The notes under the pieces were generated by a model. It had not been told where the DNA came from. It saw only the letters and a list, made by a program, of their open reading frames with translations, and ran no database searches. Shown piece after piece: positions 44,223-64,000 of a DNA stretch of 64,000 bases. Both the position numbers and the translations under genes were made by a program. The stretch is from Sphingomonas sp. TZW2008 (GTDB lineage: Bacteria; Pseudomonadota; Alphaproteobacteria; Sphingomonadales; Sphingomonadaceae), in contig NZ_BDJB01000005.1 in NCBI RefSeq assembly GCF_002117915.1, positions 372,001 through 436,000 of the forward strand, read 5' to 3'. Position 1 is the stretch's first letter; each line of letters opens with the position of its first letter.

Positions 44223-47200
44223 TCAGACGAACCAGCTGCCCGGACCAGCGGCGGGCGCTAGATCAAGCATGTCGCGTCGGATCCGCGGCGGAAGCGCCGG
44301 ATCGTCTGACAACCACTCCTGCCAGCGGCTCAGGAACAGCGCGAGCTGTTCACCCGGTGGCGCCACCTCGCCGCGAGACTTCTTTTCGGAGTGAATCAGT
44401 TCGGCCACGGGATTGTATACGATGCGAAGCCCGAGCTGACGGATCTTGAGACATAGATCGACGTCGTTGAACTCGAGATTGAAGCGCTCGTCGAAGCCGC
44501 CCACCGCTTCAAGGACGCTGCGCCGGGTGGCGATCATCGCCCCCGTCACCATCGACAGTTCGCGCTGCGTCACCGCCCAGTCCATGTAGGTAGCCGCGCC
44601 GGCACGCCGGCCGAGCCACGCATGGACGCTCGTCCCCATCACCCCGCCATACACGCCGGCGTGCTGGATCGTGCCGTCGTCGAACAACAGCCGCGCACCG
44701 ACCGCGCCCACGTCTCGATCGAGCGCGAACCCAACGAGTGCGCGCAGCCAACCGGATCCTGTCGCCACGATATCGTCGTTGACGAGCAGGACGATCTCGG
44801 TGTCGGCAGCCCTCCACAGTTGATTCATCTTGGCTGAGAAGTTGAACGGCTCTTCTGGCGCTCGCAGCGTCTCGATCCGCCGTACGGTGAACGGCCATGC
44901 CGCCCGCTCCCAATCCGGCTGACCGGCGACATCATCGCCGATCAGCACGGTCAGCCGATCGAGCGGCCAGTCTACAGCAACAAGGCTTTGCAGCAGCCGC
45001 TCGACATAGCTTCCGGTGCCAGTGCTCCCCTCGATTGCCGATCGGCGGGTCGGCACGCACAGCGTTACCGCTGGCAGCGTTCCGGTGAGGCGGGGCTCGA
45101 GCTGCAGGCTCTCGCCCGTCGGTCCATCGGCGACTTGGAAGCCCGCATAAAGCGGCGATTGCCCGATCAACTGCCGTCGCGCATCGCGCGGCGCCACCAC
45201 CCGGTCGCCGCTGCTGACGACCACCACTTCGGCGATGCGATCAATCGATCGGCCCTGCTCCGCCGCGCGCAGCACGAGAGCGTACAGCGCCGCATCACCT
45301 AGGGTTGGGTCCCACCCGCCCAAATCGTGCAGCACCGAGGCGCGGACGAAGAGCGGCACGCCGATATAATCCTGCGCGGCGAACATCGTCTGATCGAAGT
45401 GTGGTTTAAGACGAACCTGCTCGATCAGGGTCGCCGCACCGAAAGCAGCATCGTCGGCGTAGAAGATCGCGACGTCAGGGCGTGCCGCGGCTCGGCGCAT
45501 CAACAGGCGCTGCGTCAGCGGATGAAGGCCGCAGTCCTCAGGCGCGAACAAGATCCATTCATCCGCCGCGTCGGACAGCTTGCCCGGCCATTCCACCGCC
45601 GGCTGCAGCGTGCCCTTCTTAAGCGGGACGATCGATAGGCCTTCCTCGGGCTCAAACGCCGCGAGCGGAACGCCAGCCGCCCCCTCATCGATGCGCGGCG
45701 GCATACGCCGGATGTCGCGCGATTGCTGCACCACGGCATCAAGGCTACGCGCCACGGCGGCCCCGACCGTCTGCACTGACAGCGTCTCGGCGATGCGGGC
45801 GCGGCCGGCTTCACCGATCGACGTGTCGCCTGCATCGATCTTTTCTGCCGCGCGGATCAAGGCTTCGGCAAGAGCATCCTCGTCGACCCGGGCCCAGGTG
45901 CCGCCTTTGGTGTAATGGCCGAAGTCTCGGTCCAGCGTCCATGCGTCCGCCTTGACGGGATAGCCGCACGTATCGTCGAGGAACTGCGTTGTCCCGCTAT
46001 AGTCTGTTGCCACCACCGCGCGCCCGGCTGCCATCGCCTCCGCCACGGTCAGGCCGAATCCTTCGGCGCAATGCGGCGAGGCGTAGATGTCGCCCGCCGT
46101 GACAAGGTCGGCGAGCTCGTGGTTATTGAGCGAGCGGTCGAGTAGGATCACCGCGTCGGTTGCCCCCGCCTGTTTCACCAGCGCCTCGCCGTCGCCAGGG
46201 CGATCCATGAGGTGCTTCGTCTTGAGCACGAGCGACCAACCCCGTTCGGCAAGCCCGCTCGCGGCAAAGGCGCGAAGCAGTGCGGCAGGGTTCTTCCGCA
46301 CGAGGTAGCTCGCCCCGTCGAACACGTAGAGGATGAGGCGTCGGTCGGTGGGCAGACCAAGCGCCTGTCGAATTGCGGCGCCGCTATGGTTCGCGTCCGG
46401 CGTCACCGGCACGACGTGCGGCACAACGTCCACCGGCGCTTCGTCCTGCGCCCCGAACAGCGCGGCGTTGTACGCACTCGGCGCCCAGATACGATCGACG
46501 GAGGAGAAGTCACGCCGCCAGGCTGCCGGCAGATGCTCCATTTCCCACACCCAATAACCGATCCGCCTTCCGGCGCACGCGATCGCGCCGCGCTGGTCGT
46601 CGGTCAGCAAATGCCATGAATCCGGGTTGAGGTGCACGATCGCGATGTCGGCCGGGCCATCGAAGTCGATCACGTCGAGTGGCGGGGTAAGCGGCTTGTG
46701 CACATGAAACGGCTTATGGATCGGATGAAGGTTCAACCGCACGCCTGCCTGGCGAATAGCCGCGATGATCCCGCGGCTCGCCGAACCTAGACCGTTGTCG
46801 TAATTCCACGGCCCGTAGAACGCGACCTTGTACGGTTTGACGGGCAACGGATCGTCGTCGCCGCTGGACGGGCGGACCCGGGCGAGCAACGGAAACTCCC
46901 CGCCCGGCAACGGTTCGTCGGTTCCATAATCGAGTGTTGCCTCAAGCAGCTGGCGATCGAAGCCGGCACGCGCCAACGCTTTCTCCAGCCCCCGCGTCGA
47001 GATATGTGGGAACCGGCCACGCACCAGCAGCAGCTTGATGAAGGGGAAGCCAGCGTCGAGCAGCCGCCGCCACGCGAACAGTGTCGGATTACGCGCTTCG
47101 TCGACCTTGAACACTGCGTCCGCGGTGAACCCGGCGTCGCAGATGCGGGTCGTCAACGGCACCTCGAAGGCGTTGATGACCTCGTCCTTGTCGAGCACGA

Positions 47201-48488
47201 CGTGCACCGAATTGACGAAGAGTTGAAACGCGTAAGACGATAGCAGCCGGGCGTTCACGCGCAGGAAGTAGCTTTGGATGTGCCAGCCCCGCTCCAACGT
47301 TTCGGTCAGGCCTGCGAGGTCCGCCGTGTTCGCGCGCAGCGCAGCGATCGCCTCGCTGAACGATGCATCGGTGGTTGGGCCGAAAATGCTGTCATTGACG
47401 ATGTAGAGGGCGTCTGCGCCGTAGAGCTGCGGCGCCACGCGCAGCATGTGTGCCCACGCACCGAAATCATAGCCGCGATTTTCGCGGACCATCGCGCTCG
47501 CCACGCTGGCAAGCAGATCGTCGTCGAGCAATACCGGTCGGTCGGCGTTGACGACCAGCGATACTGCAATGCCTTGGTCTGCCAGTAAGCGAAGAAATCG
47601 GCGAACAAACGGCTGAAGGACCCCGGTTGGCGCGTAGGCGACGAAGATCGCATGCTCCCCGGCGATCGCTTCGAGCGGCTTGGCAAAGATGTAGCGCGCG
47701 CTGGTGATCCGCCGTGCGGCGATCTGCTCGCCCAGCGGCGGCAGCATGATCGTCAGTGGCGATCCCTCGAGTGGCTCGCCGGTCGACGCCAGCCGTGCTT
47801 CGACGGTGATCGTCTCGCCTGCCAGATCCTCCGCATCGAGCATCATCGTGAAACCGGCTGGCCCCTCCGTGATACCCGCGGCCACAATATCGGGTCGCTG
47901 CTGCGTCGCGATCGCGCGCCCAATCACCCGTCCCCCGGCAAGGCTCATCACGATGCGCGCGGGCTCACCGCTAGCGTCGGGCTCCACGGCCCAGCCACGA
48001 ACCTCGTAACCATCGACACGGTCGATCACGCCGACCGGCGCGCCGCCTGATCGCTGCGCGACAACGGCAACATCGCGCGTCGGAGTGATGCCCAACGATT
48101 GTAGCTCCGCACGTGCGGCGTCGTTTCCATCCAAATCGAAGCTGCGACGATAGTAACGCTCGGCCTCTTCGCGGCGTTGTGAGGACTTCAGCAGGTGACC
48201 AAGATTGAGCGCAAGATCGGCATTGTCGGGTTCAAGCGCCTCCGCCCGTCGATAGGCTTGTTCGGCGCCGTCGAGATCGCCAGCCTCCTTCGTCGCATGC
48301 CCCAGTTGGACCCAGATCGGAAAAACAGACGGATCAGCCTCGAGAAAACGACGATAATGATCGATCGCGCCACGCCAGTCGCCTCGATCGCGCGCTTCAT
48401 CGCCGAGGCGGCGATGCTTTGCGGGATCAACCTGTCCGGTCCCCACGCCGAACATGGCCGCCGCCTGCCTGATGAGATTGTTCGCCAT
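44223..48488 (-). CDS. Multi-domain glycosyltransferase (TPR / RgpF-like / GT4 / GT2)
   Basis: A 1,421-residue fusion. TPR repeats occupy about residues 20-130. A beta-sandwich with GYEVRGWAVEPDASGEP follows (about 140-255), then an RgpF-like rhamnan synthesis domain (about 265-560; GYDFGAWAHML, YIVNDSIFGP). The GT4 domain (about 590-930) has CAEGFGLTVAEAMAAGRAV. The C-terminal GT2 region (about 980-1400) has LLVNDDI and FNDVDLCLKIRQLG. The first part of that GT2 region looks decayed. It probably assembles several sugar linkages of one glycan. Starts further upstream are possible because the frame stays open into the neighbouring gene. Confidence 0.85.
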   Translation of the reverse strand: MANNLIRQAAAMFGVGTGQVDPAKHRRLGDEARDRGDWRGAIDHYRRFLEADPSVFPIWVQLGHATKEAGDLDGAEQAYRRAEALEPDNADLALNLGHLLKSSQRREEAERYYRRSFDLDGNDAARAELQSLGITPTRDVAVVAQRSGGAPVGVIDRVDGYEVRGWAVEPDASGEPARIVMSLAGGRVIGRAIATQQRPDIVAAGITEGPAGFTMMLDAEDLAGETITVEARLASTGEPLEGSPLTIMLPPLGEQIAARRITSARYIFAKPLEAIAGEHAIFVAYAPTGVLQPFVRRFLRLLADQGIAVSLVVNADRPVLLDDDLLASVASAMVRENRGYDFGAWAHMLRVAPQLYGADALYIVNDSIFGPTTDASFSEAIAALRANTADLAGLTETLERGWHIQSYFLRVNARLLSSYAFQLFVNSVHVVLDKDEVINAFEVPLTTRICDAGFTADAVFKVDEARNPTLFAWRRLLDAGFPFIKLLLVRGRFPHISTRGLEKALARAGFDRQLLEATLDYGTDEPLPGGEFPLLARVRPSSGDDDPLPVKPYKVAFYGPWNYDNGLGSASRGIIAAIRQAGVRLNLHPIHKPFHVHKPLTPPLDVIDFDGPADIAIVHLNPDSWHLLTDDQRGAIACAGRRIGYWVWEMEHLPAAWRRDFSSVDRIWAPSAYNAALFGAQDEAPVDVVPHVVPVTPDANHSGAAIRQALGLPTDRRLILYVFDGASYLVRKNPAALLRAFAASGLAERGWSLVLKTKHLMDRPGDGEALVKQAGATDAVILLDRSLNNHELADLVTAGDIYASPHCAEGFGLTVAEAMAAGRAVVATDYSGTTQFLDDTCGYPVKADAWTLDRDFGHYTKGGTWARVDEDALAEALIRAAEKIDAGDTSIGEAGRARIAETLSVQTVGAAVARSLDAVVQQSRDIRRMPPRIDEGAAGVPLAAFEPEEGLSIVPLKKGTLQPAVEWPGKLSDAADEWILFAPEDCGLHPLTQRLLMRRAAARPDVAIFYADDAAFGAATLIEQVRLKPHFDQTMFAAQDYIGVPLFVRASVLHDLGGWDPTLGDAALYALVLRAAEQGRSIDRIAEVVVVSSGDRVVAPRDARRQLIGQSPLYAGFQVADGPTGESLQLEPRLTGTLPAVTLCVPTRRSAIEGSTGTGSYVERLLQSLVAVDWPLDRLTVLIGDDVAGQPDWERAAWPFTVRRIETLRAPEEPFNFSAKMNQLWRAADTEIVLLVNDDIVATGSGWLRALVGFALDRDVGAVGARLLFDDGTIQHAGVYGGVMGTSVHAWLGRRAGAATYMDWAVTQRELSMVTGAMIATRRSVLEAVGGFDERFNLEFNDVDLCLKIRQLGLRIVYNPVAELIHSEKKSRGEVAPPGEQLALFLSRWQEWLSDDPALPPRIRRDMLDLAPAAGPGSWFV

Positions 48489-48537
48489 GCCGATCAATTC
48501 CAGTCCGGAAATATCAGAAAGTTCGTTGTCGAGGGGC

Positions 48538-50439
48538 TCATGCGACGTGGATCTCGTCGGCATCGATGCCGAGCGGCCGCCACGGCATCGGCTGGACGCT
48601 GCGGTCGATGTGAGCGAGGATCTCGCGCATACTAGGCTCACGCAGCATTGCGAACGGAGCGACGCTGCGCTGCCAATACGGGCTCACACCGGGATCTTCA
48701 CGCAGCGCCTCACCCCAGCGTTCGATCAAATCGCCGCGCTCGCCCTCGTCCCAAGCAATCGCGCTTTGGGTTCGGTTGACACCGCGCGTGGCACCTTCGG
48801 CATGGATCGCCTCGATCGCGGGGCAGTAGCGGACGACGAGACCACGTTGCCGTACCTTGAGACACAGATCGACGTCGCTGTGCGCAACCATCAGTCGGGC
48901 GGCATCGAATCCGCCGATGTCGTCGAAAGTCTCCCGTCGGACGGCGAGAAACGCTCCAGTGACCGCGGAAACGTCGTGCGCTTCGACGTAGCGTCCGCCG
49001 GGCCCGCGTTCATCGACTTTGGCGCCCCGCCCTTCGTGTTCGACGCCTGTCGGACCAAAGCCGAACACCATGCCGGCATGCTGTACCGTTGCATTCGGGT
49101 ACAGCAGCCGGGCGCCTAGCGCGCCGACGGCAGTATCGCTCAGGGTCGCTGCGAGGGCATCGTCCCACCCAGCGGACAGCATTTCGATGTCGTCGTTGAC
49201 GAAGGCCAGCAGCGGTGTTGTTCCTGCTGCTGCCCCCAAGTTGCACGCCAGAGACCAGTTGAAAGGCGCGTCGAGCGGAGTGACGCGAGCGACGCCGCTG
49301 CGGACCAAGTCGGTGAAGAGCGCCATCGACTCGTCAGCACGACTGCGATTGTCGATGACGATGAATTCCAGCCGTTCGGGCGCGCGCGCAGTGGACCGTA
49401 GCGAAGTGATCGCGCGCGACAAAAGTGCTGGCGAGTCCCGCGTGGGTATGACGACTGTTATCGCCGTATCGTCGCGCGCTGGGATCGCATCGGATGACGC
49501 TGTGTCAGCCGCCGTAGCGCTATCCTCCACCGCGCCCGCACGCGCGATCAGCGGCAGCTCCAGCCGCGTGGCAAGTACGCGCGGAACCGCGGCGATTGTG
49601 CCGGCCATTCCCGCCGTGGCGACCAACGCAGAGCGAAGCGTTGCACCGTCCGTCACTTCGCCGATCGCGCCGTAGATTGGCTGCATTGTAGCAACCAGTG
49701 GTGGGGAACCGTTTACCCTCAAAGTGGGATCGAAAATCCCGTGCAAGCCGGGATCGGCACGAAGGATGCGATGCACCGGATCGGTGACACCGCGATCATG
49801 ATCGGCGATCGCGGCCGCGGCGCCGGTTCGCTGCAACGCAAAGGTCAGCCAGGCGAGCGCCTCGGGATCAATCGTCGTTCCGGCGTCAATCACGACAACA
49901 TAGTCTGGCTGGTCTTCACGCGCAGATGGCGTGAGGCACTCGACGAACGACATCCGCCGATCGGTCGTCGCGAAAGCTCCAACTGGATGATCGCGGACTG
50001 TCGCGGGCGCTGCGACGATCGCCTGCCAATCGTGATGCGATTGATCCTGCAGGCTGCGCAACGTCTCCCGCAGCAGATAGGGCTGGGCCGTCAACGCATC
50101 GACGACCACCAATACCGATGCTCTGGAGACGGTGGTCTGCGGAGGCGGCGGCCGCACCGGAATATCGCGGCGAAAAAGGTCGTAGGCGGCAATTGGATAA
50201 CCTGACGGCGCGGACGGGCGCCTGTCCGAGTCGCGCGCATCGGCGTGGGCTGCCGCCATCGTTGCGATTTGATGCCAACGATCCGTCGCATCTGATCGCG
50301 TTTCCCAATCGTCAGTCCATGGCGACGATTCAATCCGCGAACTACGCGGGGCTGGCCGCGGCAGTGCGGCAAGCGGCCTCAATGGCGGCATGGATGGTGT
50401 CGGCGCGGCGCGACGCGCGCGTCTACCCCAACCGATCAT
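48538..50439 (-). CDS. GT2-family glycosyltransferase, two-part
   Basis: A 633-residue protein. After a basic N-terminal tail, a first GT2-like half (about residues 105-320) contains VLVVVDALTAQPYLLRETL and DYVVVIDAGTTIDPEAL. A second, better conserved GT2 domain (about 325-580) has ITVVIPTRDSPALLSRAI, the nucleotide-sugar DDI in LLAFVNDDIEM, and HSDVDLCLKVRQRG. Such double GT2 proteins are common in O-antigen and capsule loci. The gene ends 49 bases before the start assigned to the giant transferase and is co-directional with it. Confidence 0.85.
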   Translation of the reverse strand: MIGWGRRARRAAPTPSMPPLRPLAALPRPAPRSSRIESSPWTDDWETRSDATDRWHQIATMAAAHADARDSDRRPSAPSGYPIAAYDLFRRDIPVRPPPPQTTVSRASVLVVVDALTAQPYLLRETLRSLQDQSHHDWQAIVAAPATVRDHPVGAFATTDRRMSFVECLTPSAREDQPDYVVVIDAGTTIDPEALAWLTFALQRTGAAAAIADHDRGVTDPVHRILRADPGLHGIFDPTLRVNGSPPLVATMQPIYGAIGEVTDGATLRSALVATAGMAGTIAAVPRVLATRLELPLIARAGAVEDSATAADTASSDAIPARDDTAITVVIPTRDSPALLSRAITSLRSTARAPERLEFIVIDNRSRADESMALFTDLVRSGVARVTPLDAPFNWSLACNLGAAAGTTPLLAFVNDDIEMLSAGWDDALAATLSDTAVGALGARLLYPNATVQHAGMVFGFGPTGVEHEGRGAKVDERGPGGRYVEAHDVSAVTGAFLAVRRETFDDIGGFDAARLMVAHSDVDLCLKVRQRGLVVRYCPAIEAIHAEGATRGVNRTQSAIAWDEGERGDLIERWGEALREDPGVSPYWQRSVAPFAMLREPSMREILAHIDRSVQPMPWRPLGIDADEIHVA

Positions 50440-52615: not shown

Positions 52616-53902
52616 TCAACCGCGCCGGTCAGCAAGTTCGTCGACGACCTGAAGGACGGTGTCGATGTGATCACCCCAGCCGACCGGCGACCAACTGAGC
52701 AGGCGATCATATTGTGCGGCGCGACGGACCGAGTCAGGCGCGGCGTAATCGAGGATCATGTCGAGCCAGCCTAGACCGTCGAGTGGATCGAGATATTCGG
52801 GAGCATCCCCGCCAACCTCGCGAAGCGCCGGAATGTCGCTGGCGATCACCGGCACCCCTGCGGCGAGCGCCTCCGCCACCGGCATGCCATATCCCTCGGC
52901 GAACGATGGTAGCAGCACGGCGCGCGCCCCGGCCATCATCTCTCCGAGCCGTCGGTCATCGAGATCGGCGTGCTCGACCACGTGCCCCCGCAGTAGGGCG
53001 GAACGCTCGAGAACGTCGATGACGTTTTCGTTCTCCCACCCCCGTCTGCCGATCAGGACGAGCTGTGGCGCCGCCTCCCCCATCCGTTCCACCATGCGCC
53101 GCCAAACGTTGAGGAGCAGGAGATGGTTCTTGCGCGGCTCGATGGTGCTGATGCACAGGAAGTAGGGTCGCTCGTCGCTGCGTCCTTGTGGCAAAACCGG
53201 GCCATCGCCCCACTCGCAGCCCAGATGCGCGACACGCAGAATCCGGTTGCGGCGGGGGGTAAGGTGTGTCGCCAAGGCGTCCAGCGTCGATTGCGAGTTC
53301 GCGATGATCCCATCGGCAAAAGTGTCGATCGATCGTATGCGCCGGGCATGTTCTGCCGCCCCGTTGGGACGGGCGAACTCGGGATGGGTCAGCGGGATCA
53401 CGTCGTGCACCAGCGCCACCATGCGCGCCCGCTCGGTCCGCAGGATGTTGCGCACCAGCTGCGTATCCTCGAGGTGATGCGGCGATGCCTGAAGATAAAT
53501 GCGCGGCCCAAGGGCGACCGGTACGGCGCGGGGACGCAGCGCGAACAGGTGCCGGATCGCCTGGGCGCGAACATCGGCCGCAGCGTCACCGCGTGTCTGC
53601 CAGCGTGCTTGAGTGAACGCCAGAAACTGCCGCACCGCGCCGATCGGCAGGCGACCGTAATAGCCACCTGCCGGATGGACCGCGGCGAAGCGCAGGCGTT
53701 CGGGCACGCGCTTCAGCAGTTCCACGGCATAGGCGTATTCGACGCGATCTATTCCCGTCGGCGTCGTGAAATACGCACGACTCAATAGGCGCGATAAATC
53801 AAATACGATCGGCCGACGTGACCGCCGGTCGTGCCGCCCCGTACCTGGCAGACCCTTGCTGAACAGCATTTTCGCCGGGGCGCGAAACGGCCTTAGCGCC
53901 AA
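52616..53902 (-). CDS. GT4-family glycosyltransferase
   Basis: A 428-residue retaining glycosyltransferase with a GT-B fold. The C-terminal nucleotide-sugar domain has STIEPRKNHLLLLNVW and the characteristic SFAEGYGMPVAEALAAGVPVIASD with its glutamate. The N-terminal acceptor domain includes LVHDVIPLTHPEF and NSQSTLDAL, as in mannosyl- or rhamnosyltransferases of this class. It overlaps kpsS by ten bases and so belongs to the kps transcript. The specific sugar is not predictable. Confidence 0.88.
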   Translation of the reverse strand: MALRPFRAPAKMLFSKGLPGTGRHDRRSRRPIVFDLSRLLSRAYFTTPTGIDRVEYAYAVELLKRVPERLRFAAVHPAGGYYGRLPIGAVRQFLAFTQARWQTRGDAAADVRAQAIRHLFALRPRAVPVALGPRIYLQASPHHLEDTQLVRNILRTERARMVALVHDVIPLTHPEFARPNGAAEHARRIRSIDTFADGIIANSQSTLDALATHLTPRRNRILRVAHLGCEWGDGPVLPQGRSDERPYFLCISTIEPRKNHLLLLNVWRRMVERMGEAAPQLVLIGRRGWENENVIDVLERSALLRGHVVEHADLDDRRLGEMMAGARAVLLPSFAEGYGMPVAEALAAGVPVIASDIPALREVGGDAPEYLDPLDGLGWLDMILDYAAPDSVRRAAQYDRLLSWSPVGWGDHIDTVLQVVDELADRRG

Positions 53903-55149
53903 CGGACGATCCGCGTCACATTGTCGGCGATCGAACGGACGGGGGCCGTTAGCCGCGGAATGGCGTTTTCGACCAGCATCGCCAGTCCCTCCTCGCTGAG
54001 GAAGCCGCCACGTATCAGGGATCGGTCGACGAAGACCCGCCGAACCGACGACCAGAGCGTCTCATCCGGGCGTGCCGGGGCCGGCCAGAAATCCTCCAGC
54101 GCGCCGCGGTGCACGACGCCGTCGACATCATAGACCGCGTGACCGATCACCGCGACAGGAATGCCGAGATTGAGCGCCAATGTGCCGACCGTGCTGTTTA
54201 CCATCACAGCCCCTGCGCTGTGGGGGAGGATGGCATTCAGATCTCCGTCGCCGATATAGAAGACCCGATCAACGACCCCGTGACGGCGGGCAAGACGATT
54301 GGTGATCGTGCGCCACGGGATCAGACCGTTGTCCAGCGGATGCCGCTTTACCAACAGGCGCGCGTCACGCGGCGCTGCCTCGGCGAAGTTCTTGATGATG
54401 AAGCGCAGCGCCGCACGCATGTCGTTGAACGGCGAATGGACGCGCAACTGATAGTCGGAGTTGAGCTGTAGCGGTACGAGGAAGATAGGATGGTCGGCGC
54501 GCGCCTGCAGCACGCGATCCAACGTTCGCCGCGACCACCGTCGCTCGACCCCGCTATTCAGCGCCCATAGCATCCAGCCGATCGCCTCGATCAAGGGGCT
54601 GTACGGCCGATGCGTCCGGTAGAAGGGATAAAGGGGCATCAGGAACATCGTCGCCAGGAGATGGCGGATCGTTTCAATCGCGCGGCGGCGAAAGCTTGCG
54701 GGGATAGCCGGCGCCGGCGGCTCGGGCGGCAGGCGCTGTGCCTCCGCCCGGAACCATGCAGGGTCGCGCGGCAACCGCGAGTGGCCGTTGACCCCGCCCT
54801 CCTCCAACGTCACGTAATCCGGGCGGATGTACCCTTCTTCAAGGACATGGACCCGCAAATTGCGCACCTTCGCCATGCCGTGCGCGCTGGCGTGATGCGG
54901 GCGGCAGTCACCGAACAGCACGAGATCGGTGATTGCGTGCTTGACGATGAAATCATCGACGAAGACCGGCCATGAACGCAGCGTGCCACGATAATCGGTT
55001 GCCGGGCCGGGCCAGTCGAGCCGATCACCGCCGCACAGGTTGATACGATGCACCGTATGGCCGCGTGACGCCAAAGCGCCCGCAAGACGGGCGAAATAGG
55101 AACCATGGGGCCCCTGCAGGAAGAGAAAGACGCGCCGCTCAGTCTCCAT
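53893..55149 (-). CDS. kpsS: Capsule Kdo transferase KpsS-like
   Basis: A 418-residue protein of the KpsS family, which in E. coli group 2 capsules adds the first Kdo to the phosphatidylglycerol anchor. Family marks are FLFLQGPHGSYFARLAGAL at the start, VLEEGYIRPDYVTLE, PLQLNSDYQL, VKRHPLDNG and the late MVNSTVGTLALNLGIPVAV. The start overlaps the kpsC stop (TGATG), so the two Kdo enzymes are coupled. With kpsC, kpsE and kpsM on the same strand, this defines a Kps-type locus. Confidence 0.88.
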   Translation of the reverse strand: METERRVFLFLQGPHGSYFARLAGALASRGHTVHRINLCGGDRLDWPGPATDYRGTLRSWPVFVDDFIVKHAITDLVLFGDCRPHHASAHGMAKVRNLRVHVLEEGYIRPDYVTLEEGGVNGHSRLPRDPAWFRAEAQRLPPEPPAPAIPASFRRRAIETIRHLLATMFLMPLYPFYRTHRPYSPLIEAIGWMLWALNSGVERRWSRRTLDRVLQARADHPIFLVPLQLNSDYQLRVHSPFNDMRAALRFIIKNFAEAAPRDARLLVKRHPLDNGLIPWRTITNRLARRHGVVDRVFYIGDGDLNAILPHSAGAVMVNSTVGTLALNLGIPVAVIGHAVYDVDGVVHRGALEDFWPAPARPDETLWSSVRRVFVDRSLIRGGFLSEEGLAMLVENAIPRLTAPVRSIADNVTRIVRWR

Positions 55150-56552
55150 CAGCCGCGGCCCTTGACCCGCTGCAGCACCCGCCGCGTCGCGCCGAGCGTC
55201 CGGCGAAAGCCGGTCAGCAGCGTGCTCGAGCGGCCGGCATCAGCCGCGAGCCGCTCGACCAATACCTCGACCGGACACGGCAGGAGCGTGACTGGATCGC
55301 GGTAGCGCGGCGCCAGGATCAGGCTGGCGGCAACTAGCTCGTCTATCGTCAAGCGGCGCGTCCGGCGCGGCGGTATCGGACCAAGGTCGTTCGTCAGTCC
55401 CCACCCGGCGTAGAATGGCGCGCCATGGACCGTCACCGGCACATCACGCAGCAGCGCCTCAAACCCGGTCAACGAGGAAACGACATGCACCGCATCGGCG
55501 CGATCGATCAATGACAACAGTGATCCCGTCGCAAGCGTCAGGTCGACGTGACGATCGCCAGACAAGGTACCGGCGCGCAGGCCGACGCTTACGTCAGGGT
55601 GCGGCCGATAAACGATGAACGCGTCCGGCTCGCACGCTCGCACACGCGCCATGAAATCGATCATGCCGTGCGATCCGCCGGCGTGCCTGACCGAAAGATC
55701 GTCCGTCACCTGCCCCACCGCCAGCACGATCCGCCGGCCCGTGGGCAACGATGGTCGTGGGCCTCCACGATCGATGCCGTATTTTCCAATACCCGCCGCA
55801 ACGATGCGGCGGCGCAGCCGTGCCGCCCGATCGAGCAACGTGTCGTCGAACACGTGGTTCTGCAACAGTCGCTCAAGCGCGCTCTCGCGTGCCGGATCGA
55901 AGTGGATCCCGCCCGTGGTATCGACGATCACCGACATCGGCGGCCGACACTCGGCACCGAGGCCCGACGATCGGATGAAGCCATCCTCGACCTGCCACGC
56001 GCTTGCATCGGCTTGCCCGACCCGCTCGGCAAAGCCCGGCGGCACTCGGGACGGCCAGTAGGCGACGGCAGCACCGGGCGCGATCGCATCGGCTACCGCC
56101 CCCGGCGCGACGAATGCAGGCGAGCCGCGACCATGCCACAGGAACTGTCGCATCGCGTCGCGCTTCCATGGCGCCATGCCCACCGCGGCACCGATCCTGC
56201 GGTTCGTGTCGATCATTTGCCGCCAACCGGCCAGGATGCCGATCGCGGCGTCGACGTCGATCAACGCGCCGGTGAAGGGATCGCGATAGGCCGCCCCTTC
56301 CAGCGCAGCGACCGCCACGACCTCGTCACCCTCGCGGATAGCCTGCACGATCCGAGCGTCGGCGCCGTTGCTCGTACTTCGCCATGGATCATCGTCGGCC
56401 CAGAAGGCGCCACCGACCTGCGCCGTTCGAAGCAGCGCCAGCGTCCGGCCGGCGTTGTCGACACGCGAGTGTCCCGGGAAAGATACCGCGGCGGTCTGGC
56501 GCGGCACCCATGGGAACGGCGGTGACCGCAGGAAAAAAGATGGTGACGCCAC
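55149..56552 (-). CDS. kpsC: Capsule Kdo transferase KpsC, single-module form
   Basis: A 467-residue KpsC-like protein. Residues from about 115 onward match the C-terminal half of E. coli KpsC: VEDGFIRSSGLGAECRPP, AGIGKYGI, VGQVTDDLSV, VYRPHPDV, SSLTGFEALLRDVPVTVHG, and PFYAGWGLT. E. coli KpsC is about 675 residues with two Kdo-transferase modules. Here only about 110 residues precede the second module, and the first is missing apart from its last helices (DPFTGALIDV...). The remaining enzyme should add one type of Kdo linkage. The frame is intact, and the stop couples to kpsS. Confidence 0.85.
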   Translation of the reverse strand: MASPSFFLRSPPFPWVPRQTAAVSFPGHSRVDNAGRTLALLRTAQVGGAFWADDDPWRSTSNGADARIVQAIREGDEVVAVAALEGAAYRDPFTGALIDVDAAIGILAGWRQMIDTNRRIGAAVGMAPWKRDAMRQFLWHGRGSPAFVAPGAVADAIAPGAAVAYWPSRVPPGFAERVGQADASAWQVEDGFIRSSGLGAECRPPMSVIVDTTGGIHFDPARESALERLLQNHVFDDTLLDRAARLRRRIVAAGIGKYGIDRGGPRPSLPTGRRIVLAVGQVTDDLSVRHAGGSHGMIDFMARVRACEPDAFIVYRPHPDVSVGLRAGTLSGDRHVDLTLATGSLLSLIDRADAVHVVSSLTGFEALLRDVPVTVHGAPFYAGWGLTNDLGPIPPRRTRRLTIDELVAASLILAPRYRDPVTLLPCPVEVLVERLAADAGRSSTLLTGFRRTLGATRRVLQRVKGRG

Positions 56553-56576: not shown

Positions 56577-57746
56577 TTACGCCGCGTGCTCGCGCACGCC
56601 AGCCGCGATGAGCCAGCCGATCGCGTAGATGACGAGCAGCGCGCAGAACACCGTAAGGACTGTCAGCGCACGTTTTGGGTAGAGCGACTTCACCGGCATG
56701 TTGGGCTCGACGATCCGCGCGACATAGAGCTGCTGGCGTACCGCGTTCTGCCGCGCCGCCTCGTAACTCGCACTGGCGGCTTCGTACCTTTTGGCAAGCA
56801 GTTCCTGCTGTATACGCAGTCGCTCGTAACCGCCGAGCCCTGCAGCGATCGTGCTCGATCCGCCCGTCAGCCTGCTGTTCTGCGCCGCGAGCTGACTTTC
56901 GAGGCTTCGGATCTGCTGCTGCAGCGCCTCGACCTGCGGGCTGTTACCGCCGATCAAGGCCTGTGTCGTCGCGAGCTGCGCGCGCGCTGCCGAAAGCTCC
57001 TGCGACAAGCGCGACACCAGCGCGATCTGCGCCTGCGCGGTGCCCGCCGGATCAACGTCGCGCTCCGATTGACGGAAACGCGTCATCTGCGTCTGCACTT
57101 GGCCAAGCGCGCGCTCGGCCTCGTCGAGCTGACGTCGCGACAGCGCGACCGCATCCGCAAAGCCGCGGATGTTGATTTCATTCACCCGCTGCTCGCCCAG
57201 CGTCAGCAGCGTACTGGTAAGGCGATACGCGTCGTCCGGGCGGAAAGCGCGCGCCTTCAGCGTCGTGATACCGGTATCGGTGTCATAGTGAACGTCGACC
57301 TGCTTCTGGTAGTAGCGCAGCAGATATTCGGGTGTGGGCGCCTCCACCGGCAGCCGGCTTCCGATATCCGCCTCGGGTCGCCGGAACAGCTTCACCAGAT
57401 CGAGCCGCTTCTGCAACGTCTCGACCACATCGTGCGATGTCAGATAGTCCGACACGCTCTGCGCCTCTCCCGATGCGGCGCCGCCGGCCGCGCCGCCCAG
57501 TCCGAGAGCCGCGCTGATGCCGGTCGCCGGTGCCGCCGCGGTGCCGCCTTGCGTGCGCACCAGAAAATGCGCTTCCGATACATATTGGTTCGACGCCATC
57601 GCGTAGAGATAGGTCGCTAGCACCAGCGTCGGCGCCACCACGACGATAAGGAACCATTTGTTGCGACGAACGAAGCGCATCAGTCGCTCTGCCGGAGATA
57701 CCGGCGGCGTGACCTGAACTTCCGCCGGCGTCATGAAACCGTGCAC
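56577..57746 (-). CDS. kpsE: Capsule export inner-membrane protein KpsE
   Basis: A 389-residue polysaccharide co-polymerase-like protein bridging the inner and outer membrane exporters. It has two terminal transmembrane helices (about residues 30-50 and 362-382). The periplasmic region has SNQYVSEAHFLVRT and a long coiled coil (about 195-300), then KSLYPKRALTVLTVF before the last helix. I chose the GTG at 57746 because GGGGA lies seven bases upstream. An ATG at 57734 would drop four residues. Confidence 0.9.
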   Translation of the reverse strand: MHGFMTPAEVQVTPPVSPAERLMRFVRRNKWFLIVVVAPTLVLATYLYAMASNQYVSEAHFLVRTQGGTAAAPATGISAALGLGGAAGGAASGEAQSVSDYLTSHDVVETLQKRLDLVKLFRRPEADIGSRLPVEAPTPEYLLRYYQKQVDVHYDTDTGITTLKARAFRPDDAYRLTSTLLTLGEQRVNEINIRGFADAVALSRRQLDEAERALGQVQTQMTRFRQSERDVDPAGTAQAQIALVSRLSQELSAARAQLATTQALIGGNSPQVEALQQQIRSLESQLAAQNSRLTGGSSTIAAGLGGYERLRIQQELLAKRYEAASASYEAARQNAVRQQLYVARIVEPNMPVKSLYPKRALTVLTVFCALLVIYAIGWLIAAGVREHAA

Positions 57747-57792: not shown

Positions 57793-58608
57793 CTACGGCA
57801 TATGAATACGCTGACGCACCGTCGAAATCAAAAGAAGTCCGATAAGCAGCGTGCCTAGGATCCAGCCCCCAAGATAAAGGCCGTCAATATATTCGGAACG
57901 TGCCGATTTGAACCAACCGTAGCGCATGATCTCGTAAATATGGGCAAGCGGTATCTTGAGAAAGAAGTCGCGCAACCCGCCCGGAAGAGCATTCATCACA
58001 AAAAAGGCGCCCGATAGGGGCATCATGATATAGACCATCGGGTGGATCAGTCGCCCGATCGCTGGTCGCTCATGCGTCAGCCCGCACACGATCAGCGATA
58101 GCGCAAACGACTGCAGGAACATCAACGCGACACCGACCAGGTAGATAAGCGGGCGCTCGGGCGGATTGGCGATCCCGGTGGCGACCGCCAACCCCATGAG
58201 GATCGCGAACGCCGTGAATGTCCCCGCCTGTTCGAGCAGGGAGCGCGACACCAGGATATCGATCGGTTTGATGATCCGATGGTAGAACAAGGAAAGGCTG
58301 CTCTCGAGCGCTCCGTCCGACCGGCTAACCATCGAGCGGAACGTCATGAAGTTGCAATAGCCGATCAGCGCCATCGGCACGGGCTTGATGTCGCCCGAGA
58401 AGTGGTTGGGCGAACGCGAATGGAGCAGGCCGATCGCGCTGGCCAACAGCAGCGGTTCGAGGATGAGCCAGAGGTAACCAATATTCTGCCGGCCATAGCG
58501 CGTGTGCAGATCGCGCATGATCAGCGCGCCGATAACACGGCGCTGCACACGGAAGCCCTGACGAAGCATGCTTGCGGTTCGCGGCGGATCGCCGATCACG
58601 CTCGCCAT
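57793..58608 (-). CDS. kpsM: Capsule ABC transporter permease KpsM
   Basis: A 271-residue ABC-2 permease with six predicted helices. The N-terminal cytoplasmic segment ALIMRDLHTRYGRQNIGYLWLILEPLL and the C-terminal LPGGLRDFFLKIPLAHIYEIMRYG are hallmarks of KpsM. It exports the finished polysaccharide with KpsT. Unusually, kpsT is not adjacent but lies beyond two glycosyltransferase genes on the opposite strand. It is 46 bases before kpsE. Confidence 0.92.
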   Translation of the reverse strand: MASVIGDPPRTASMLRQGFRVQRRVIGALIMRDLHTRYGRQNIGYLWLILEPLLLASAIGLLHSRSPNHFSGDIKPVPMALIGYCNFMTFRSMVSRSDGALESSLSLFYHRIIKPIDILVSRSLLEQAGTFTAFAILMGLAVATGIANPPERPLIYLVGVALMFLQSFALSLIVCGLTHERPAIGRLIHPMVYIMMPLSGAFFVMNALPGGLRDFFLKIPLAHIYEIMRYGWFKSARSEYIDGLYLGGWILGTLLIGLLLISTVRQRIHMP

Positions 58609-59997: not shown

Positions 59998-61128
59998 CTA
60001 GAGCGCCAAACGGGAATCGCCAGCGAATTCGCGGTGCAGTGCGCGCACGCGAGCACCGAAGGCCGCGGGCGTGAATCGAGCAGCGTTACGCGCACCAAGG
60101 TCGCTGAGTGAACGGCGCAAGTGCTGGTCACGGCTCAGGGCGCGCAGCCCGCCAGCGATGGCATCGATATGGAGCGGATCGACGAGCAGCGCCGAATCAC
60201 CAGCAACCTCCGCCAGCGCGCCGCGATCCGATGCGAGCACCGGCGTACCGAGCGCCATTGCTTCGATTACCGGCAACCCGAACCCTTCTGCGAGCGAAGG
60301 CATCAGAAGCGCGCGAGCCTGCCGGATCAGGGTCACCAGCATCGCGCGTGGCTGATAAGGCAAAACGATCACGTCCGCCGGTATCGGCAAGCCCGCGAAC
60401 GATGGCCCGACGAGCACGAGCCTTTCGGCGACGCCGCTCGCCCGCCACGCCGCCACCAGTCGCGGCAAATTCTTGCGCGCCTCCGCAAGACCGCAGAACA
60501 GGAAATATCGGCCCGCAACGAGTGGTGCCGGCAGTGGCTGTAGCTGATGCTCGAGATCACTCGCCGCAGCGCCCATGGCAACCACGCGATCGGCGCCGAC
60601 GGCAAGTGCATCAATGATCGCGTCGCGTGCGTGTCCAGATACGGTAACGATGCGATCAGCAATGGCGGCGATCGCGTCCAAACGCTGTCGGAGCGCCGTC
60701 GCGTCGATCGGCGACAAGGCAGGATCGGTCAGCGGGATCACGTCGTGAACGGTGTAGAGATTGATCCATCCCGTGATGCGAGCGGGTATCGGATAGGTCC
60801 AATGGATGATGCCAGGGCGCCCCGACGCATGAAGCTCCAACAATTTGCCGGTCGCCGCGAAGCGCGCATGGGCGAGCCTGAACACGTCGCCCGCGAAAAG
60901 CATCTCGCCCTCGCGCCACAGGCGAACCTTGAGCGGCAGGTGAGCACGCAGCCGGCGCCAGACGATCTGCGGTAATGGGTTAGCTGCATCCAGCACCCCG
61001 CCCCGCGCATCACCGAGAACCATCGCCGCACGACCGGTCGCGGCGAGCGCCGCGCGCAAACCATGCGCGTAGCTTGCGACCCCGGTTGCCTTGGTCGCCG
61101 CGAGACGCCCGTCGACACAAACCGGCAC
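59998..61128 (-). CDS. GT4-family glycosyltransferase
   Basis: About 376 residues of a GT-B glycosyltransferase, with GVASYAHGLRAAL, IIHWTYPIPARITGWINLYTVHDVIPL, VTVSGHARDAIID, and SLAEGFGLPVIEAMALGTPVLASD with the catalytic glutamate. It ends two bases before its paralogue starts. The N-terminus is uncertain: TTG at 61170, GTG at 61152 and GTG at 61128 are all in frame. I used 61128 because an earlier start would leave almost no space before the divergent kpsT. Confidence 0.85.
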   Translation of the reverse strand: MPVCVDGRLAATKATGVASYAHGLRAALAATGRAAMVLGDARGGVLDAANPLPQIVWRRLRAHLPLKVRLWREGEMLFAGDVFRLAHARFAATGKLLELHASGRPGIIHWTYPIPARITGWINLYTVHDVIPLTDPALSPIDATALRQRLDAIAAIADRIVTVSGHARDAIIDALAVGADRVVAMGAAASDLEHQLQPLPAPLVAGRYFLFCGLAEARKNLPRLVAAWRASGVAERLVLVGPSFAGLPIPADVIVLPYQPRAMLVTLIRQARALLMPSLAEGFGLPVIEAMALGTPVLASDRGALAEVAGDSALLVDPLHIDAIAGGLRALSRDQHLRRSLSDLGARNAARFTPAAFGARVRALHREFAGDSRLAL

Positions 61129-61184
61129 CTTTTGCAGCTCGTCGCAATCCACTATCGTCGGCCGGCACAATCGACAGGCTCGCG

Positions 61185-61883
61185 ATGATCGTCCTCGACA
61201 GCGTTTCCAAGGTATATCACGGGCACAACGTCGACAACGAAGTGCTGCGCGATGTCAACCTCGTCATTCGACCCGGCGATTCGTTCGGGGTGTTCGGCGC
61301 AAACGGCGCGGGCAAATCTACGCTGATGAAGCTGCTGGCTGGGGTAGAACGGCCGACGACGGGCCGGATCGCGCGAACAATGTCGGTGTCCTGGCCAATC
61401 GGCTACGCCACCGCCTTCCACCCAAGCCTGACGGGCGCAGACAACGCCAAATTCATCGCCCGGATCTACGGCGTCGACGAGCGCGAGCTCCTCGATTTCG
61501 TCAGCGATTTCGCGCAGCTTGGTTCGTACATGCATGAGCCGATCCGCACCTATTCAGCCGGCATGTCGGCGCGCCTTGCCTTCGGCGTGTCATTGGCGAT
61601 CAAGTTCGATTGCTACCTCGTCGACGAGGTGACCGGCGCGGGAGACGAGCGCTTCAAGCTGAAGTCCGAGGAGGCATTGCACGAGCGGCGCGAGCGCGGA
61701 ACGCTTGTCATGGTGTCGCACGATACCAGCACGTTGTTCCGCTACTGCCAGCGCGGTGCCGTGGTCTATGGTGGCAGCGTCACGCTTTACGACACGATTG
61801 AAGAGGCGGCGGACGTCCATCACCGTCTGCAAAGCCTGGGCGCGCGTGCCCGCCGCGGCGAGCGGGCAGCGGCGGCAGCCTAG
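61185..61883 (+). CDS. kpsT: Capsule ABC transporter ATPase KpsT
   Basis: A 232-residue ABC ATPase. Walker A is GANGAGKST (about residues 38-46). The signature helix is the KpsT-type YSAGMSARLAFGVSLAIKF in place of LSGGQ, and Walker B is CYLVDEVTGAGD. The switch histidine is in MVSHD. It powers polysaccharide export through KpsM, which lies on the other strand. It starts a plus-strand operon with the exporter lipoprotein and kpsF, divergent from the GT4 gene. Confidence 0.92.
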   Translation: MIVLDSVSKVYHGHNVDNEVLRDVNLVIRPGDSFGVFGANGAGKSTLMKLLAGVERPTTGRIARTMSVSWPIGYATAFHPSLTGADNAKFIARIYGVDERELLDFVSDFAQLGSYMHEPIRTYSAGMSARLAFGVSLAIKFDCYLVDEVTGAGDERFKLKSEEALHERRERGTLVMVSHDTSTLFRYCQRGAVVYGGSVTLYDTIEEAADVHHRLQSLGARARRGERAAAAA

Positions 61884-61982
61884 TCGCCGCGCGCGAGGCG
61901 GATTGTCTTAGCCGCACCTACGCGATACTTGCGCAAACCAGCGGGATATTGGGTCGAGCAGACCCAGGGGTGGGGATTGTTT

Positions 61983-63131
61983 ATGCGAATGGCCGAACTT
62001 TTCAGGTCGTCGCGCGCGGTGCTTGCCGCGCTCGCCGCCGGGCCGCTGCTGGCAAGCTGCTCGACGCTACCTAGCGCCGGGCCGACCGCGGCACAGATCA
62101 ACCAAGCGCTGGTCGCGCATAACCAGACCGGCTTCACGATCGTCGATATCGACGCTCAGTCCGCGCCGGCGCTCGCCTTCGCTCCGCCCGCTCCTGGCGC
62201 GCTTGCGCGGCTCGCGCGGGAGGGGCGGATCGACACCATCGGTCCGGGTGACGTGCTCGACGTCAACCTCTTTGAAGTCGGCGTCACGCTGTTCACGGCG
62301 CAGACGACCGGCCCAGCGCAGGGCGGTACCTTCAATCCTTCGGCACGCGGCACGCCGCTTGGCCCGGTTCGCGTCGATGCCGCCGGCAATATCCAGCTGC
62401 CGTACATCGGCCGCCTCGCTGTCGGCGGCAAGACGCCCGGCGAGGTCGAAGGGATGATCGAGCGTGGCTTGCGCGGACTGTCGCAGCGGCCGCAGGCCCT
62501 GGTGTCGATCCGCACCAATGCGTTCAACGTGTTCTACGTTTCGGGCGATGTGCGCACCCCCGGAAGGTACGAGCTCGGCCTTCCGCGCGAGCGGCTGCTC
62601 GATGCACTCGCGCGCGCGGGCGGCACCGTCAACCAGCCGGACGATATGGTCGTGCGTATCACCCGCGACGGTGTATCGGCGGAAACGCGTCTGTCTGCAG
62701 TCGATGCGTCCGGTCCGCAGAACATTGCGCTTCTACCCGGCGACCGGGTCGAATTGTTCAACCGGCCACGCACCTTTCTTGTCTTCGGTGCGAGTGAAAA
62801 GGTCAGCCAAGTCGCCTTCGGTGCAAATCAGCTGTCACTTGCAGAGGCACTTGCGCGCGTCGGCGGCCCGAGCGAGCGGATCGCCGACGCCTCCGCCGTC
62901 TATCTCTTCCGCTACACGCCGGCGGGCACCGGAACGGAAGGCACAACCCCCGTCATCTATCGCCTCAACATGATCCGACCCGACAGCTATTTTCTGTCGC
63001 AGCGTGTCGGCATGCACGACAAGGACGTAATCTACATCGCTACGGCCCGTGCGAACGCGCCAGCGAAGCTCGCGCAGATCCTGGGGCAGCTCTTCTCGCC
63101 GATCCTTGCGGTCCGGGCCGTCACCAACTGA
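61983..63131 (+). CDS. Outer-membrane polysaccharide export lipoprotein (KpsD/Wza-like)
   Basis: A 382-residue lipoprotein with the lipobox LASC (C26). A Poly_export domain (about residues 95-190) has GPGDVLDVNLFEV and PYIGRLAVGGKTPGEVEGMI. SLBB-type segments follow (about 195-345), with VSGDVRTPGRYELG. It would form or gate the outer-membrane channel for the capsule. The ATG at 61983 follows a G-rich stretch. A small hairpin (TGGGTC/GACCCA, 61950-61966) lies 16 bases before it and may affect translation. Confidence 0.88.
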   Translation: MRMAELFRSSRAVLAALAAGPLLASCSTLPSAGPTAAQINQALVAHNQTGFTIVDIDAQSAPALAFAPPAPGALARLAREGRIDTIGPGDVLDVNLFEVGVTLFTAQTTGPAQGGTFNPSARGTPLGPVRVDAAGNIQLPYIGRLAVGGKTPGEVEGMIERGLRGLSQRPQALVSIRTNAFNVFYVSGDVRTPGRYELGLPRERLLDALARAGGTVNQPDDMVVRITRDGVSAETRLSAVDASGPQNIALLPGDRVELFNRPRTFLVFGASEKVSQVAFGANQLSLAEALARVGGPSERIADASAVYLFRYTPAGTGTEGTTPVIYRLNMIRPDSYFLSQRVGMHDKDVIYIATARANAPAKLAQILGQLFSPILAVRAVTN

Positions 63132-63236
63132 TCGGGCCCGTTGCCGTGATTACCGGTTCGACATTTGGCTGCGTTGCGTGATGGAGCGGGTTTCACGAGC
63201 CTGGCATTTCTCGACCGCGGCGGGGCACGTTCGCTG

Positions 63237-64000
63237 ATGGCGACGGTCAAGGATCCCGTCCGCCCCTCGCGGGCAAGAGGCAGCCGCCGCTCGGTCGCCT
63301 CCCGTACGGTGGCACTCGCGGTCGACGGGCTCGTCGCACTGGAGGCGGCCTTTGCCGACGCCGATTTCCTTGACCGGTTCGAGCAGCTCGTCAGCACGAT
63401 CATTGAGGCGCCCGGGCGGGTCATCCTGGCTGGAATGGGCAAGAGCGGTATCATCGCGCGCAAGATCACCGCGACCCTCACATCGACCGGTATGCCCGCG
63501 ATGTTCCTGCACCCGGCAGAAGCGGGACACGGTGACCTTGGCATGGTGACGGAGGGTGACGTCGTCGTCATCCTGACCCGCTCGGGCGAGACCAGTGAGC
63601 TCGCGGCGATCTTCGCTTATTGCAAGCGCTTCGCGATCAAGACGGTGACGATCACCGCCCGCCTCAATTCCACTGCGGCGCGTGCGGCCAACCTCGCTAT
63701 CCGCCTGCCCGCGGTTCGTGAGGCATGCCCGATCGAATTAAGCCCGACGACTTCCACCACGCTCCAGCTCGTCTTCGGCGATGCACTGGCGATGACCTTG
63801 ATGGCGCGGCGCGGTTTCTCGACCGACGATTTTCACAACTTCCATCCTGCCGGCCGGCTCGGTGCCCGTCTGTTGCGGGTGCGCGACGTTATGGCGCGCG
63901 GTAGCGACGTACCGCGGGTGGCGCCCGATGCGTCGCTGCTCGACGCAACGATTGAAATGACCCGGACGCGGCACGGCGCCACGGCCGTCGTCGACGGCGA
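63237..64000 (+). CDS. kpsF: Arabinose-5-phosphate isomerase KpsF/KdsD (runs off window)
   Basis: The first 254 codons of a sugar isomerase that converts ribulose-5-phosphate to arabinose-5-phosphate for Kdo synthesis. The SIS domain (about residues 45-190) shows GMGKSGIIARKI, FLHPAEAGHGDLGMVTEGD, TRSGETSEL and LSPTTSTTLQLVFGDALA. The first CBS motif begins at about 210 with VRDVMARGSDVPRV. The gene is cut by the window end. Its place behind kpsT and the exporter supports the capsule-linked kpsF copy and not the LPS copy. Confidence 0.9.
   Translation, partial: MATVKDPVRPSRARGSRRSVASRTVALAVDGLVALEAAFADADFLDRFEQLVSTIIEAPGRVILAGMGKSGIIARKITATLTSTGMPAMFLHPAEAGHGDLGMVTEGDVVVILTRSGETSELAAIFAYCKRFAIKTVTITARLNSTAARAANLAIRLPAVREACPIELSPTTSTTLQLVFGDALAMTLMARRGFSTDDFHNFHPAGRLGARLLRVRDVMARGSDVPRVAPDASLLDATIEMTRTRHGATAVVDG

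Follow-up and report, generated by a model that had tools for sequence, protein, structure and literature searches.

The kpsC gene of Sphingomonas sp. TZW2008 encodes a protein with one complete Kdo-transferase module, of the C-terminal type, and only the end of the other. We found it in a stretch of 64,000 nucleotides that we analysed as a whole (the window). This form is not peculiar to one genome: it is the more common form of KpsC in the family. The explanation that in our view best accounts for all observations, and to which we lean with slightly more belief than doubt, is that a KpsC reduced to its C module builds a capsule linker of only two Kdo residues.

The kpsC gene and its retained module

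The gene lies on the minus strand at positions 55149–56552, starts with GTG at 56552 and encodes 467 amino acids that match PF05159 (E 9.5e-29) and the KpsC structures in the PDB. In the Pfam search there is one PF05159 stretch, residues 162–411. Upstream of the GTG the frame stays open for at most 8 extra codons (475 amino acids from stop to stop), and kpsE ends at position 56577, 24 bases from the kpsC start. Hence, there is no room for a hidden upstream module. At the other end, the stop of kpsC overlaps the start of kpsS (TGATG, 55147–55151), which agrees with the initial annotation of an intact frame coupled to kpsS. A sequencing error or a wrongly chosen start could also produce a short kpsC. 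Both are ruled out by the few spare codons, by the adjoining kpsE and by the 55 further genomes of the family in which KpsC also has a single module; a form found that often is not a sequencing accident.

In an AlphaFold2 model built from 51 aligned sequences (mean pLDDT 82.5), residues 114–442 (55227–56213, minus strand) form a complete GT107 module. They superpose on the solved KpsC modules 6mgb, 6mgc, 8fux, 6mgd and 8fuw with Z scores of 32.2–33.4 and an rmsd of 1.9–2.5 over 288–314 residues (VIA-align; Foldseek). Similarity to the GT99 and GT140 folds is weaker, with Z scores of about 15 and 10 compared with 32–33 for GT107. The protein thus has one catalytic module where KpsC is defined by two in one chain, and this module carries the ED(GF), KY, QXXXD and HP motifs of GT107.

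The catalytic residues of the module are intact. The EDGF motif (Glu189-Asp190, 55983–55988, minus strand) is invariant in a 51-row alignment (A1); in the N module of E. coli KpsC this Glu-Asp pair provides the general base and acceptor contact. The nucleophile motif QXXXD (Gln281 to Asp285, 55698–55712, minus strand) and the HP motif (His318-Pro319, 55596–55601, minus strand) were identified in the same alignment and in a further alignment of 46 single modules. Trp166, Glu189, Asp190, Lys257, Tyr258, Gln281, Asp285, His318 and Pro319 are kept in all 46 of these modules. The acceptor side has diverged: single modules mostly read W-A-G-K, whereas the C modules of dual-module proteins read W-P-S-R. 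Moreover, the Asn that follows the catalytic Lys-Tyr is retained in 34 of 34 dual-module C modules and lost in 61 of 65 single-module sequences. We had initially considered this loss to be universal among single modules, an idea we dropped given the four sequences that retain the Asn (L102, L145, L153 and L154). Together, the acceptor-side divergence and the loss of the Asn mean that acceptor choice may have changed.

The chain ends in a helix of basic and nonpolar residues in the model (residues 445–466; 55155–55220, minus strand). This helix is likely a membrane anchor, the role that such a helix has in the available text of PMC10148158.

Module type and phylogeny

The structural comparison has no power to separate N from C modules, since the best Z scores for the two types tie (33.4 and 32.4). 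The assignment of the module to the C type therefore rests on sequence scores against the PDB and on trees. The best PDB match by sequence is the β-2,7 transferase of Thermosulfurimonas dismutans (6mgd, 157 bits), compared with 124.9 bits for the N module of E. coli (6mgc) and 120.2 bits for that of T. dismutans (6mgb). In three trees, all read as unrooted, N and C modules are split with a support of 0.996 (114 modules, 46 of them single), 1.0 (92 modules, 65 single) and UFBoot 100 (86 modules, 46 single). Every single module, up to 65 of them, falls on the C side, the type that in E. coli is the β-2,7 transferase. The dual-module loci L040–L112 were thinned to one third in both trees with 46 single modules, and the UFBoot tree holds 6 N modules. 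For the tree with 65 single modules the C modules were thinned further, to even-numbered loci, and 5 N modules were included. One locus with a split gene (L127) was left out of the trees, one that ends at a contig end (L103) out of the classification, and L122, L123 and L131 were omitted because they are duplicates.

Single modules from sphingomonads and acetic acid bacteria form one clade to the exclusion of Hansschlegelia (0.99, 0.983 and UFBoot 98). The Hansschlegelia module groups instead with the dual-module proteins of Skermanella and Pinisolibacter (0.876, 0.757 and UFBoot 91) and therefore represents an independent loss of module 1. A separation of the sphingomonad single modules from those of acetic acid bacteria is not stable across the three trees (0.516, absent, and UFBoot 89). 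The placement of the window gene is unstable as well: in two trees it groups with L004, L012, L022, L030 and L068 (0.863 and UFBoot 76) and in the larger one with L153 and L154, genes that consist of the module only (0.963).

What remains of module 1

In front of the retained module, the first 110 residues of the protein do not form a module of their own in the model. Residues 1–61 (56370–56552, minus strand), which align with relatives, have a pLDDT below 50 and no confident fold, and a sequence search of residues 1–111 against the PDB gave no significant match (best E 0.059). The initial annotation had proposed a protein made of the C-terminal module plus no more than the tail of the first one, and the PF05159 match, the AlphaFold2 model and a profile comparison all bear this out. 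In the profile comparison, an alignment of residues 83–126 (56175–56306, minus strand; with a helix at 100–117 in the model) and their counterparts in two short relatives hits dual-module KpsC at its tail and linker (hhalign 91.2%, E 1e-6, calculated, like all our hhalign E-values, for a single template). This segment is the end of module 1 together with the linker helix. The first 60 or so residues carry motifs that are common to many relatives (LRxPPFPG and RVGGxFW; LRSPPFPW and VGGAFW in the window protein).

Relatives with longer leaders retain more. Taken as a whole, the N-terminal region of relatives gives a profile that aligns to the end of module 1 (hhalign 98.2%, E 5.6e-14; 0.8% for the best of 30 column shuffles). 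If only the sequence upstream of the YRDPFTG motif is used, module-1 positions 127–276 are still matched (90.4%, E 1.4e-6; the best of 30 shuffles reached 1.0%, where one shuffle value may duplicate an earlier one). Six long forms show a second, partial match to the module HMM at its tail, with 6.7–32.2 bits in L014, L015, L019, L026 and L032 and 34.9 bits in L136, and the leader of L026 retains a recognisable GLFAGWGLTED. In a model of a Gluconacetobacter KpsC the leader consists of alternating strands and helices, mostly with a pLDDT of 70–90, a predicted pattern as expected of one α/β domain. We had also considered that the N-terminal region is an unrelated new domain. For the long forms this is ruled out, as their leaders align to module 1. 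In none of the single-module leaders did we see the acceptor domain of module 1 or its QXXXD and HP motifs.

What is left of module 1 thus ranges from half a module to nothing, with the catalytic motifs gone. The length before the retained module, where measured, varies from 15 to 240 residues: it is 126 residues in the window protein, 52–62 in L124, L125 and L144, and 15–23 in L126, L153, L154, Bombella and Saccharibacter. The last two have no remnant at all. These lengths are approximate, since the starts of the relatives were set by script or by eye, and L038, L102 and L147–L149 were left out. Short leaders are scattered over the tree. L124 and L125 group with L128 (1.0), L144 with L006 (0.948), Bombella and Saccharibacter with Gluconacetobacter (0.988), and L153 and L154 with the window gene (0.963); L126 is placed weakly (0.3). 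Hence, the remnant was probably lost several times, and judging by these sequences it seems to be dispensable.

Distribution of the single-module form

With the KpsC query P0001, matches at E 0.001 occur in 67 of the 298 genomes of the family, strong in 65 and weak in two (G008 and G166). Counted with the module HMM, 9 of the 65 strong genomes carry two modules (L113–L121) and 56 carry one; the latter are made up of 30 genomes including that of the window, 7 more (L124–L130) and another 19. The expectation that the reduction is stable is in line with these counts. The interpretation in the initial annotation is supported in part: the reduction is real, but it is the commoner form in the family rather than special to this genome. 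In one of the 56 genomes (G244) kpsC is split between two frames, and in G110 the leader is interrupted by a stop after its first part. We dropped G255 as a further broken copy, since its one stop is at the 5' edge of the match and outside the reading frame. In G075 (L119:17473–19499) a dual-module KpsC is accompanied by another GT107-like module that occupies two overlapping frames.

Among genome contigs we also classified 80 named loci. They are the best matches to the window protein among 519 candidates and not a census. Sixty-nine of them encode two modules and 10 encode one; the remaining locus is truncated at a contig end. The 10 belong to five Gluconacetobacter, Sphingomonas gei, a Sphingomonadales MAG, Bombella mellum, Saccharibacter floricola and Hansschlegelia beijingensis. 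The single-module form is a variant of known KpsC that belongs to a clade. Within the genus of the window the locus is patchy, as KpsC was found in none of the 5 other genomes sampled; a recent gain or loss of the capsule locus is possible there.

The capsule locus and its Kdo supply

The partner gene kpsS and the ABC export genes lie in the same locus as kpsC, several of them with matches below equivalog cut-offs. On the minus strand these are kpsS (53893–55149; PF05159 E 3.6e-71, NF050054 E 2.8e-69, below cut-off), a kpsE-like gene (56577–57746; TIGR01010 BexC/CtrB/KpsE E 2.5e-71, below cut-off) and a kpsM-like ABC permease (57793–58608; NF050053 E 1e-25, below cut-off). On the plus strand follow a kpsT-like ABC ATPase (61074–61883; PF00005 E 3.2e-15), whose true start may be downstream, a kpsD-like polysaccharide export protein (61929–63131; NF011658 E 4.1e-29, below cut-off) and kdsD/kpsF (63165–64000; TIGR00393, over cut-off), which continues past the end of the window. 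Beyond it lie kdsB (NF003952, over cut-off), a histidine phosphatase gene and, on the opposite strand, kdsA (TIGR01362, over cut-off). The locus also holds several glycosyltransferases. A 1472-amino-acid protein (44223–48641, minus strand) combines TPR, RgpF, GT4-type and GT2-type parts in one chain. In Komagataeibacter medellinensis, according to the available text of PMC6559206, kpsC and kpsS are cotranscribed with the bcs2 cellulose cluster.

The organism probably makes Kdo for its capsule alone. The LPS Kdo transferase gene waaA was not found in the window genome and is missing in 297 of the 298 family genomes (it is present in G219 only); lpxC is absent from the window genome as well. A kdsB-like gene occurs in 78 of the 298 genomes, including all 65 with KpsC, if kdsB-like means an E-value of 1.3e-33 or better; the curated cut-off of TIGR00466 is passed by only 9 of the 298. 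Capsule-only Kdo is suggested by the absence of waaA, by the kdsB-like gene in every KpsC genome and by the kds genes beside the locus. In 13 of the 298 genomes, all of them without waaA, a strong kdsB-like gene occurs in the absence of a strong KpsC; one of them (G254) has a KpsS-like PF05159 match.

The gene between kdsB and kdsA (G000:C5:437069–437635; L133:13069–13635) belongs to the histidine phosphatase superfamily. KdsC (TIGR01670) is absent from the window genome and over cut-off in 3 of the 298 family genomes. L129 has a similar gene next to kdsB, and L137, L138, L141 and L151 have one next to kpsC; it is not found at six other kdsB loci (L068, L119, L120, L127, L128 and L131). In some lineages this phosphatase may fill the role of the missing Kdo-8-phosphate phosphatase.

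The missing module could also be encoded elsewhere, as in T. dismutans, where the KpsC modules are separate proteins. Across the whole genome, 23 contigs with a listed completeness of 100%, a PF05159 search hit two places, kpsS and kpsC, and hence neither a second KpsC module nor a separate N-module gene. The search picks up module 1 of dual-module KpsC (e.g., E 7.9e-45 in G142). Because it detects both modules of dual-module relatives, it should also detect a separate N module, although Kdo transferases that belong to other families would escape it. Only two PF05159 genes are likewise present in the genomes of Bombella and Saccharibacter.

Discussion

In E. coli, as far as the available text of PMC10148158 goes, KpsS starts the linker with one Kdo; the C module of KpsC is the first to act on this product and attaches a (2→7)-linked Kdo, the N module follows with a (2→4)-linked one, and the two modules repeat their steps in turn. 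Each module rejects the acceptor of the other, acceptor choice maps to the ~70 residues at the start of each module, and KpsC adds a single Kdo when its N module is inactivated (PMC10148158). From the same biochemistry, the best inference for the proteins described here is a linker that is shorter or has a single linkage type. We propose that an ancestor of the clade of sphingomonads and acetic acid bacteria lost the acceptor domain and the active site of module 1, the β-(2→4) transferase. The module would later have eroded to differing extents, and in the window gene only its end would remain, as a leader. What is left of KpsC would be the C-terminal module, by ancestry a β-(2→7)-Kdo transferase. 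KpsS would place the first β-Kdo on (lyso)phosphatidylglycerol, and the single-module KpsC would add one β-(2→7)-Kdo by the usual Asp-Kdo double displacement. Elongation would then stop at two Kdo because the C module extends chains that end in a (2→4) but not in a (2→7) linkage. The capsule polymer would be begun on, and anchored by, a fixed linker of two Kdo with one linkage type. One point against this proposal is that the E. coli linker ends mainly in (2→4) Kdo, and downstream enzymes may need such a terminal residue. We found neither biochemistry nor a glycolipid structure for any single-module KpsC. Among the literature matches listed there is also no description of such a protein, although Doyle 2019 and Willis 2013 may contain one.

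There are other ways to read the reduction. A transferase of another family could have replaced module 1, for example a GT99-like or GT140-like β-(2→4)-Kdo transferase or one of the several glycosyltransferases of the locus, and the linker would then be normal. Kdo transferases with negligible similarity to KpsC do exist (KrkA, GT140; available text of PMC12887879), and PF05159 would miss them. However, the locus glycosyltransferases that we tested match ordinary GT2/GT4-type models, and there is no second PF05159 gene in the window genome, Bombella or Saccharibacter, so that we consider a replacement unlikely. We regard it as similarly improbable that the single module has relaxed its specificity and polymerises Kdo alone, to poly-(2→7) Kdo or to alternating links made by one site. 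This would fit the acceptor-side and active-site residues that differ from dual-module C modules, given that acceptor choice has been located in that acceptor domain (available text of PMC10148158), yet the catalytic residues are unchanged and an E. coli KpsC in which only the C module works adds one residue (PMC10148158).

It is very doubtful that the locus is decaying, that no capsule is made and that kpsC is a relic. Such decay could be read into the one frame-split kpsC among 56 single-module genomes and into the lack of KpsC in the five other genomes searched in the genus. In the window genome, on the other hand, the frame is intact, the catalytic residues are retained and the kps export and kds genes are present, and 56 genomes have kept the single-module form.

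It is instructive to compare the protein with known systems. Like the dual GT107 enzyme of E. coli, it has the homologous module with its catalytic residues, a kpsS partner, kps-type export genes and, as predicted by the model, a C-terminal helix with basic residues. It differs in length (467 amino acids versus 675) and in that module 1 (β-2,4) is cut to its terminal stretch. The C module of T. dismutans (6mgd) is, like the window protein, a C-type module in a protein of its own, but there the N module exists as a second protein (available text of PMC10148158), whereas none was found in the window genome. The Vi capsule of Salmonella Typhi (VexE) is another ABC-exported capsule without the standard poly-Kdo linker. 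Vi does without KpsS and KpsC altogether and uses another glycolipid (available text of PMC12220298). WbbB (GT99) adds a single β-Kdo and is related in fold (Z 14.7–15.6), but it is distant in sequence and caps O-antigen instead of starting a capsule (available text of PMC12887879).

Bacteria with a single-module KpsC probably have a capsule anchor far shorter than that of the textbook. For this clade, which seemingly makes Kdo only for its capsule, we see the chances as evenly balanced that the linker is fixed at two Kdo with one (2→7) bond and that the polymer starts on a different terminal Kdo. In the available text of PMC10148158, almost all ABC-transporter capsules are said to share the oligo-Kdo glycolipid as a conserved feature, and KpsC is presented as a dual-module enzyme. 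If our proposal is true, then the supposedly conserved alternating poly-Kdo chain would be dispensable. Because 297 of the 298 family genomes lack waaA, the Kdo content of such cells should be an almost direct readout of linker length, and the linker question is therefore testable. The single-module bacteria would then provide a minimal system for asking what role the length of the linker and its terminal linkage play.
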